Source: a virus
Strand: one strand, 5' to 3'
IMG/VR virus record: IMGVR_UViG_3300028287_000004
Coordinates: 1-58,576 of that record
Length of the DNA stretch: 58,576 bases
The translations under genes and the position numbers were made by a program. This document shows positions 347 through 50,653 of the stretch, one piece after another (the stretch's first letter is position 1; each line of letters opens with the position of its first letter). Below the pieces are notes generated by a model. The model had not been told where the DNA came from. It saw only the letters and a list, made by a program, of their open reading frames with translations, and did no database searches.

Positions 347-609
347 ACTGGATACAAATAGATAAGCAGATTATTAGTATGATGCGTATTATAGATGACA
401 AAGATAAATTATATGAAGATGTAAAGCACGTATTCAAGTGGAATGATTCACAAGTCGAAGCTGCCGTAGCTCCACTAATCAATCGTTGGAACTGGCATGG
501 TATGCACAAAGATGAAGTTCCAACTAAAAAGAAACGTGTAACTAAAACCACAAAAAAAGCCCCTACTAAGAAAGCAGGAGCTAAAACTAAAGCAAAAAAG
601 AATTCATAA
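331..609 (+). CDS. Small protein with a lysine-rich, histone-H1-like tail
   Basis: Up to 92 residues. The middle (about 20-60) looks like a small helical domain ending in RWNWHGMHKDE. The last 30 residues are almost only Lys, Thr and Ala, like histone H1 tails and other nucleic-acid-binding tails. The first possible ATG (331) overlaps the preceding gene; ATGs at 379 and 382 are alternatives and no ribosome site decides between them. The 3' end overlaps the convergent nuclease gene by 6 nt. I do not recognise the family; DNA or RNA binding is an inference from charge. Confidence 0.5.
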   Translation: MVVILNWIQIDKQIISMMRIIDDKDKLYEDVKHVFKWNDSQVEAAVAPLINRWNWHGMHKDEVPTKKKRVTKTTKKAPTKKAGAKTKAKKNS

Positions 610-1041
610 CTTGTTTCTTAAATCGTCAAGATACTCACTGAGTATCTTAGAACTACCTATTCTGACGTTGATGATACCGTTATAGTATTCATCCGTCTCT
701 AACACTCTACGATCAAATTGTTCTTTAGCTTCCATGTAGCTTAAAGCACCACGACTCGGACAGTAGTGTAAAATCTCCCTAGTAAACATTTCAGGGCCCA
801 ATCTTTCAACATCTGCATTCAGATGGTCAGAAGAACCCCAGTATGTACGCCAATCAGATTCCTTGGTGCCACGTCTTTTGTTCTTACGTCCCTTTAGAGG
901 TGGTTTCGTGGTCTTAAATTTTGCTAATTTCTTACCTACGTATTTCCTGTTATCCTCAAGATTCGTAATCAGATATACAAATCCCTCAACATCATCTGGT
1001 AATTCATTAACTATTTCGTTATTATATGTCCAATCACTCAT
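604..1041 (-). CDS. GIY-YIG family endonuclease
   Basis: 145 residues. The N-terminal half carries the two half-motifs of a GIY-YIG nuclease: VYL at 22-24 and YVG at 34-36, about 10 residues apart, followed by a basic stretch, an Arg (about 65, in WRTYWGS) and a Glu (about 104, in SYMEAKE) in the expected positions of the catalytic Arg and metal-binding Glu. Such proteins in T4-like phages are usually free-standing homing (Seg-type) endonucleases or DNA-degradation enzymes; which applies here cannot be told. It is transcribed leftward and lies directly downstream of the structured minus-strand RNA region, so the two may share a transcript. Confidence 0.75.
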   Translation of the reverse strand: MSDWTYNNEIVNELPDDVEGFVYLITNLEDNRKYVGKKLAKFKTTKPPLKGRKNKRRGTKESDWRTYWGSSDHLNADVERLGPEMFTREILHYCPSRGALSYMEAKEQFDRRVLETDEYYNGIINVRIGSSKILSEYLDDLRNKL

Positions 1042-1097
1042 GTGTATTGTATATCATTTCTTGTTATCTTATTTAGGTCTAAAGACCTAATCCTTCA

Positions 1098-1590
1098 TAT
1101 ATTTCATGTCGCTTCGCTCATTCAATATATTCAGTCTTTATTTCTTATATATAATATAATGGTTATATTATTAATCTTATTTATATATGCCTGCGGCTAA
1201 GCCACAATTGCCCTGTTGCCAGGACAACTGCAAAAAATTATGGATACATGCCATAGCTTCATCGCCTCTGTTTATGAGCTAGTAGCCAGAAACTACGGGG
1301 TCGGTTGGCGATTCCCCCTTCACTCAGTACTGCGTCTTTCGACCCAACGGCACCTAATAATGTCTAAACAGACAGAACATTATGTAAGTCGATAGTGTTA
1401 TAGTAACCTATCATCGGTTATAAAATTGTAAAACTGGTCAACCACGAACCTTTAGAGCCGTGGCTGTTATGTGTTATGAATACTCTTTTTTGTGGTTAAC
1501 GAGAAGATTGCGGGAATTCATCCCCACTAGTCCAACGGCAACAGTATCTTTAAATACTGGCAGATTCAATCCCGAGTTGGCAACCCAACT
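1098..1590 (-). ncRNA. Candidate large structured RNA (minus strand)
   Basis: There is no credible gene here, but the minus strand folds repeatedly. Paired segments in plus coordinates: 1098-1108/1119-1129; 1193-1197/1201-1205; 1205-1215/1220-1230 (11 bp with a GCAA tetraloop); 1298-1303/1340-1345 or 1334-1336/1341-1343 (GAAA loop); 1358-1365/1374-1382; 1391-1400/1404-1412 (one bulge); 1437-1445/1492-1500; 1510-1516/1521-1527; 1542-1547/1554-1559; 1575-1580/1585-1590. Several stems contain G-U pairs that are A-C mismatches on the plus strand, and the GNRA loops exist only on the minus strand, so the RNA is minus-sense. The family is unidentified; the GOLLD class of large phage-associated RNAs is one candidate to test. 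Confidence 0.55.
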
Positions 1591-1612
1591 AACAGTTCCA
1601 CTATGTCTGATA

Positions 1613-1714
1613 TATTAGCATTTGTCATTGTGTATTAGCCTTGTATGTGCTATGTGTTAGTTTTATATTAGCTTTGTAATAGTTTTCAATAGAGCCTGAG
1701 TTATTTATATTAGC
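1613..1714 (-). repeat. GCTAATA (TATTAGC) repeat cluster
   Basis: On the minus strand GCTAATA occurs at 1613-1619, 1633-1639, 1666-1672 and 1708-1714, with a variant CTAACAC at 1654-1660. The same GCTAAYA word recurs at about 10-nt spacing in the leader of the gp32 gene (50602-50638). The cluster lies between the gp51-like stop codon and the structured RNA, reading in the RNA's direction. It may be a protein-binding array; function is inferred only. Confidence 0.5.
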
Positions 1715-1715
1715 A

Positions 1716-1949
1716 TTAGAGTATTGGCACACCTGCCTGTTTACTCATTTCATAGTTGTCTTTTATAATATCATTAATGTGAGCAATGTGCCCAACTGGC
1801 ATATCATGGAGTTCAGAAATACTTACCCCACCTCTCATATACCAAGTTAACTTTAACATATTCTTGTGTACGTTGTCAAGCTCTTTTTTGTATTTTTCTG
1901 TTTTTTCTTGAATTTCTGCTGGCGATGCTGTAATTAACCAGCCATGAAA
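1716..1949 (-). CDS. 51: gp51-like tail reached by -1 frameshift from gp26
   Basis: This open frame of 77 codons continues from gp26 in the -1 frame and has no convincing start of its own: the first ATG is 31 codons in and lacks a ribosome site. It contains NMLKLTWYMRGGVSISEL and a C-terminal IIKDNYEMSKQAG segment, which resemble the small proteins annotated as gp51 (baseplate hub assembly catalyst) in T4-like phages. In T4, genes 26 and 51 are adjacent. Together with gp26 it would give a 356-residue fusion, in the manner of the lambda G/GT tail assembly chaperones. The family name is less certain than the frame. Confidence 0.65.
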   Translation of the reverse strand, partial: FHGWLITASPAEIQEKTEKYKKELDNVHKNMLKLTWYMRGGVSISELHDMPVGHIAHINDIIKDNYEMSKQAGVPIL

Positions 1950-1970
1950 AAATTTACAGGGTTGACCTCC
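1918..1970 (-). promoter_or_regulatory. Programmed -1 frameshift signal in gp26
   Basis: On the minus strand an internal Shine-Dalgarno-like GGAGG (1966-1970) is followed after 10 nt by the slippery heptamer A AAT TTT (1949-1955) in the gp26 frame. After 6 nt comes a stem GCTGG/CCAGC (1938-1942 with 1918-1922). The gp26 stop is at 1934-1936. Spacing of enhancer, slip site and stem matches the E. coli dnaX arrangement. A -1 slip gives AAA TTT and then an open frame of 77 codons. Confidence 0.7.
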
Positions 1971-50478: not shown

Positions 50479-50506
50479 AAAAAAGGGAGCGAAAGCTCCC
50501 TTTTTT
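50479..50506 (+). terminator. Intrinsic terminator ending the late block
   Basis: Stem AAAAGGGAGC/GCTCCCTTTT with a GAAA tetraloop and T run. Confidence 0.93.
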
Positions 50507-50519
50507 ATGCAAAAAACAC

Positions 50520-50548
50520 TTGACTTTGCTAAATAGATGTAGTAATAT
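50520..50548 (+). promoter_or_regulatory. Sigma70-type promoter for gp32
   Basis: TTGACT 50520-50525, 17-nt spacer, TAATAT 50543-50548. It follows a terminator and leaves a leader of roughly 100 nt before the gp32 ATG. Confidence 0.75.
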
Positions 50549-50595: not shown

Positions 50596-50643
50596 ACTAA
50601 AGCTAATATAAATCTAACATGGCTAACATAGGCTAATATAAAG
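50596..50643 (+). promoter_or_regulatory. GCTAAYA repeats in the gp32 leader (candidate operator)
   Basis: CTAAYA words at 50596 (variant), 50602, 50613, 50622 and 50632, spaced about 10 nt, run up to the ribosome site AAGGAA. In T4, gp32 represses its own translation by binding an unstructured repetitive leader; this AT-rich repeat array is placed to do the same. The direct link is inferred. Confidence 0.55.
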
Positions 50644-50653
50644 GAAAACTACA

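Follow-up and report, generated by a model that had tools for sequence, protein, structure and literature searches.

CTAAYA arrays as a candidate RNA operator shared by a gp32-like SSB leader and a structured RNA in a jumbo phage

In the stretch of DNA analysed here (the window, a 58.6-kb fragment of a jumbo phage that encodes a gp32-like single-strand DNA-binding protein, SSB), the word CTAAYA is repeated in two dense arrays, one in the leader of the SSB gene and one before a structured RNA. We read these arrays as a single RNA operator used twice, whose binder is most likely the gp32-like SSB, and place the probability of this reading, which draws on sequence comparison, at about 0.6. That the gp32 leader and the structured-RNA site have an operator in common was the core of the original prediction, and the comparison of relatives supports it well; a search of the open-access literature found no paper on an SSB operator common to a phage RNA.

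The SSB leader contains four copies of CTAAYA (50602-50638, plus strand), three of them GCTAAYA, with starts spaced by 11, 9, and 10 nt; the GCTAAYA repeats expected about every 10 nt before the gp32 start are thus present, together with one extra TCTAACA. The second site has five copies on the minus strand (1613-1714), namely the four GCTAATA reported previously and an extra ACTAACA (Table 1). A single word is not enriched, with 18 occurrences in the window against 19.4 expected, and three CTAAYA within 60 nt are attained in 15 of 300 dinucleotide shuffles of the window; four within 60 nt, as present at both sites, are attained in none of the 300. A third tight cluster, sought in the whole 58.6 kb, was not found. 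The rarity belongs to the two dense clusters, not to CTAAYA itself.

Table 1. Positions in the window of the two arrays and of the features around them.
Feature	Position	Strand	Remarks
Hairpin terminator GGGAGC-GAAA-GCTCCC, flanks A6/T6	50479..50506	+	symmetric stem; called on minus strand
Promoter-like site of gp32 transcript, sigma70-type, TTGACT-17-TAATAT	50520..50548	+	similar site in relatives
Operator word 1, GCTAATA	50602..50608	+	
Operator word 2, TCTAACA	50613..50619	+	
Operator word 3, GCTAACA	50622..50628	+	
Operator word 4, GCTAATA	50632..50638	+	adjoins Shine-Dalgarno AAAGGA, 50640-50645
gp32-like single-strand DNA-binding protein, 354 aa	50654..51718	+	PF08804, PHROG 1192, predicted fold
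Promoter-like site, TTGACA-18-TAAAGT	1850..1879	-	upstream of second array, inside preceding ORF; weak evidence
Operator word, GCTAATA	1708..1714	-	
Operator word, GCTAATA	1666..1672	-	
Operator word, ACTAACA	1655..1661	-	
Operator word, GCTAATA	1633..1639	-	immediately 5' of micro-ORF start
Operator word, GCTAATA	1613..1619	-	over micro-ORF codons 4-6
Micro-ORF, MTNANISDIVELLVGLPTRD, then stop	1566..1628	-	overlaps 5' end of structured RNA; frame conservation
Structured RNA, ~430 nt	1181..1610	-	new to Rfam; homologues; covariation

By profile and predicted fold, the SSB of the window is a T4-type gp32 protein: it scores 28.5 bits against PF08804 (cut-off 26.8), and the six best Foldseek matches of its predicted fold are all gp32 of T4 or RB69 (E 7e-7). 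The terminator sets the gene apart from the one upstream, and all 19 leaders sampled have a sigma70-type promoter-like site (17-nt spacer) 76-106 nt upstream of the gp32 ATG; since the words fall between these two elements and the SSB start, they would be part of the leader RNA. This leader is predicted to hold no more structure than its shuffles in a model without pseudoknots, no T4-type pseudoknot was found in it, and its words are predicted to be just as accessible as the remaining leader (0.59 for both).

Among the best 80 IMG/VR relatives of the window SSB (65-89% identity), the leaders of close relatives, which the original prediction had named as a check, are not missing the array: all intact ones carry it, with at least three copies and the last one touching the Shine-Dalgarno sequence, and they have diverged outside it, in their promoter-proximal parts, spacers, and length. 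The 34 non-redundant gp32 leaders have four copies (20 leaders) or three (14), none in reverse complement, and in these leaders the last word starts 18-22 nt before the ATG, with the Shine-Dalgarno sequence directly after it. A scan of viral contigs that is blind to the protein, using two words plus TAGGAG, leads to the same gene, with an SSB start 29-32 nt downstream of the array in 78 of the 80 matches listed; the remaining two appear inside reading frames. Taken with the structured-RNA flanks described below, the words are in sense orientation at 57 of 57 non-redundant sites (34 leaders and 23 flanks), where the relatives are not independent and the counts are a measure of conservation, not probabilities. 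An SSB relative of 56% identity, found in one MAG by a search of genome contigs, has no array. The spacing, described earlier as helical, is indeed mostly 9-12 nt across relatives, but the next most frequent spacings are 14-25 nt; because values of 14-19 are common in gp32 leaders, a strict helical phase of the words is not supported.

The arrays are also close to exclusive to these two places. Three closely spaced words, sought in 20 contigs, form clusters at the structured RNA or in the gp32 leader in every case but one, which lies within a long ORF. In G001 and G022, two 342-kb contigs of relatives that are not certified complete, the gp32-leader and RNA arrays are the only intergenic ones that hold up, against about 600 and 420 single words, respectively; genome-wide, it is thus the single word that is common, not the array. 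G001 has one further, irregular cluster, at 117533; it seems to lie antisense to a short ORF, and we attribute it to chance.

The structured RNA has no Rfam match at gathering or permissive thresholds (the permissive search gave one weak SNORD36 match, E 0.12, outside the RNA), a tRNA/tmRNA search returned nothing, and blastn against the INPHARED phages gave no match. It was recovered in about 40 phage contigs via two conserved stretches, and its consensus structure from 16 sequences comprises 80 pairs, with compensatory changes in 30. A group I or II intron was considered and rejected, as the RNA matches no Rfam family and the gene downstream changes, leaving no conserved 3' exon. The RNA body contains no sense CTAAYA; the 23 non-redundant 5' flanks all contain 4-7 copies, none of them antisense, and the words there have a higher predicted accessibility than the remaining flank in every case (0.69 vs 0.56). 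Pairing between the RNA body and the arrays was discarded as an explanation: the antisense TRTTAG occurs in some bodies and is not kept across lineages.

The second site had been described as DNA upstream of the RNA; it does lie before the structured RNA, but it overlies the conserved start of a micro-ORF at the RNA 5' end. In all distinct lineages, the ATG of this frame, about 20 codons in length, is found just before or over the last word, with a predicted peptide of the approximate form M..(T/A)N(I)...IV(E/G/D)xLxGLPxRD, and the frame, except in L146, ends at the same TGA; in L163 the middle differs and the frame is retained via two compensating indels. Among 20 distinct segments, an ATG opens into the conserved part in the micro-ORF frame in 19, and in the other two frames in 1 and 2. 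Since peptide conservation is partly common to the first RNA helix, this conservation of the frame is the better evidence. With the micro-ORF under the second array, both arrays would be laid out alike: promoter, words, ribosome-binding region, start codon. In most lineages a promoter-like TTGACA-18-TANANT lies 130-137 nt upstream of the second site, in sequence that is also coding and is thus a weak indication; in L129, L137, and L148 a good promoter-like site precedes the first word by 17-19 nt. The words of the second site are probably transcribed.

In the loci read, the structured RNA comes after the gene for the baseplate hub and the small frame that follows it. At 1946-1952 (minus strand), just before its stop (1934-1936), the hub gene has the run T TTT TTC, and a small ORF that extends to 1716 is in the -1 frame relative to it. 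Distant relatives, among them RaK2, GAP32, and PA5oct, retain the T-run, which points to a programmed -1 frameshift. Immediately after the structured RNA, the window encodes a SegE-like GIY-YIG homing endonuclease (604-1041, minus strand), in whose place G001 and G007 have a different, nuclease-like gene; just 5' of this downstream gene stands a hairpin, ATTAGGTCTTTAGACCT (window ~1030-1060, minus strand), that is conserved in distant relatives though the gene changes. In L139/L162 (contig IMGVR_UViG_3300025137_000014) the structured RNA is in two separate stretches, possibly owing to an insertion or to the way the locus was cut.

The T4 protein offers a model for what such arrays could do: gp32 represses its own translation by binding cooperatively to an unstructured leader with UUAAA/UAAA repeats by the ribosome-binding site, nucleated by a pseudoknot (PMC535899; PMC3014915); the T4 leader as read contains TTAAA. 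From T4 and RB69, gp32 is also the best candidate for the binder of the CTAAYA words. In the gp32 transcript, three to four copies would occupy the ~50 nt at the 3' end of the leader, against the Shine-Dalgarno sequence; in the second transcript, four to seven would precede the micro-ORF start, the last one overlapping it. The single-stranded words would be bound by a protein of the phage, most likely its gp32-like SSB, at about one monomer per 10 nt, and ribosome entry would thereby be blocked. Once all single-stranded DNA is covered, free SSB would stop further SSB synthesis, as T4 gp32 does, and would simultaneously either keep the micro-ORF from being translated or become bound by the structured RNA. 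Protein binding, the SSB as binder, and the direction of the effect are what we infer by analogy. On the structured RNA, the array would serve as either a further target or a decoy; a more specific proposal, which we put forward only tentatively and hold to be rather unlikely, is that this RNA is a phage decoy with SSB sites at its head, whose level sets the free SSB available for SSB shut-off, while the micro-ORF reports how far SSB is saturated, by way of the ribosomes that run into the fold.

The same RNA operator could instead be read by another RNA-binding protein, of phage or host, that controls both the SSB and the structured RNA. The words do resemble a sequence-specific site, and RB69 RegA prefers UAA-rich RNA (PMC3014915); however, RegA (PF01818) is absent from G001 and G022 in the search that found the T4 protein at 2e-75, a KH_1 domain was not found in either contig, and the autoregulation of the T4 and RB69 proteins is a direct precedent for the SSB as binder, so that we consider a different binder improbable. 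Even less probable is that the arrays act as DNA; a replication origin or a transcription factor would then use them as iterons or phased sites. Spacings of 9-12 and ~20 nt are roughly helical, and the structured-RNA locus lies ~7.5 kb from the cumulative GC-skew minimum in G001 and G022; the minimum, at that distance, may mark an origin or may only follow the gene-strand switch. The evidence favours an RNA element, given the sense orientation at all 57 sites, the loose spacing (14-19 nt in gp32 leaders), the position downstream of promoters and before start codons, and the last copy fixed against the Shine-Dalgarno sequence. The arrays could also be unstructured elements that enhance translation or affect mRNA stability without any specific repressor. 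This would fit their A/U-rich, weakly structured sequence close to start codons, but is just as improbable as a role as DNA, as a fixed word is retained over large divergence and the arrays are exclusive to two places in 342-kb genomes, no intergenic array marking other genes.

SSB homologues nearer PA5oct have different repeated words at the same position of the leader, for example AGGCAAC in L260 and L302, and AGCACAATT in Atu_ph07. Over the more distant SSB leaders, 20 of 56 are enriched in repeats relative to shuffles (p<=0.05), compared with 2 of 48 leaders of the next gene, where the SSB leaders are related sequences and the control equally so. The structured RNA is absent from the hub loci read in the AGGCAAC-word clade and in named phages, and a covariance model of its 90-nt core found no match in PA5oct, Phosso, Atu_ph07, SCTP-2, GAP32, RaK2, Vibrio 2.275, Munch, and T4, or in eight more distant IMG/VR contigs. 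In a 251-kb contig of the AGGCAAC clade, the words cluster at the SSB only and a second GGCAAC array was not found (a loose GGCA pattern was dropped as a search word, being too common); as the array of this clade thus appears to be at the SSB leader alone, sharing of the operator with the structured RNA is not general. In L302, L260, L274, and similar SSB leaders, a small hairpin (ATCTAA...TTAGAT) stands between AGGCAAC words; a related SSB would here have an operator arranged in another way.

These comparisons suggest that in a group of giant marine bacterial viruses one protein switches an SSB and a structured RNA on or off, and they link the replication machinery to a structured phage RNA that had not been described. 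How a nonspecific single-strand DNA-binding protein selects its own mRNA is a question that has stood open since T4; here, dozens of natural variants show the operator word, its copy number, and a second target, and since neighbouring clades use other words, the specificity of SSB for operator becomes testable by swapping proteins and words.

Among known systems, CsrB/RsmZ-type sponges are separate structured RNAs with several copies of the word that their repressor binds in its mRNA targets. The structured RNA described here similarly has 4-7 copies at its 5' end, presumably on the same transcript, but in a mostly single-stranded flank over a micro-ORF rather than in hairpin loops, and with titration as a putative role. 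The operators of RB69 RegA are likewise UAA-containing RNA sites at translation starts; here, however, no RegA homologue was detected, the sites form arrays, and there are two targets only. For repression of M13 gene II by the gene V protein (PMC535899), no array is known; a phage SSB there acts as translational repressor of another gene, as we propose here, with a different protein and a different target. The closest counterpart is the gene 32 operator of T4 and RB69, which has a repeated short word in the leader, over the ribosome-binding site of an SSB of homologous fold. The word there is UUAAA/UAAA, here CUAAYA; there is a pseudoknot there, and none was found here in a model without pseudoknots; and here an unrelated structured RNA, with its micro-ORF, bears a second array.
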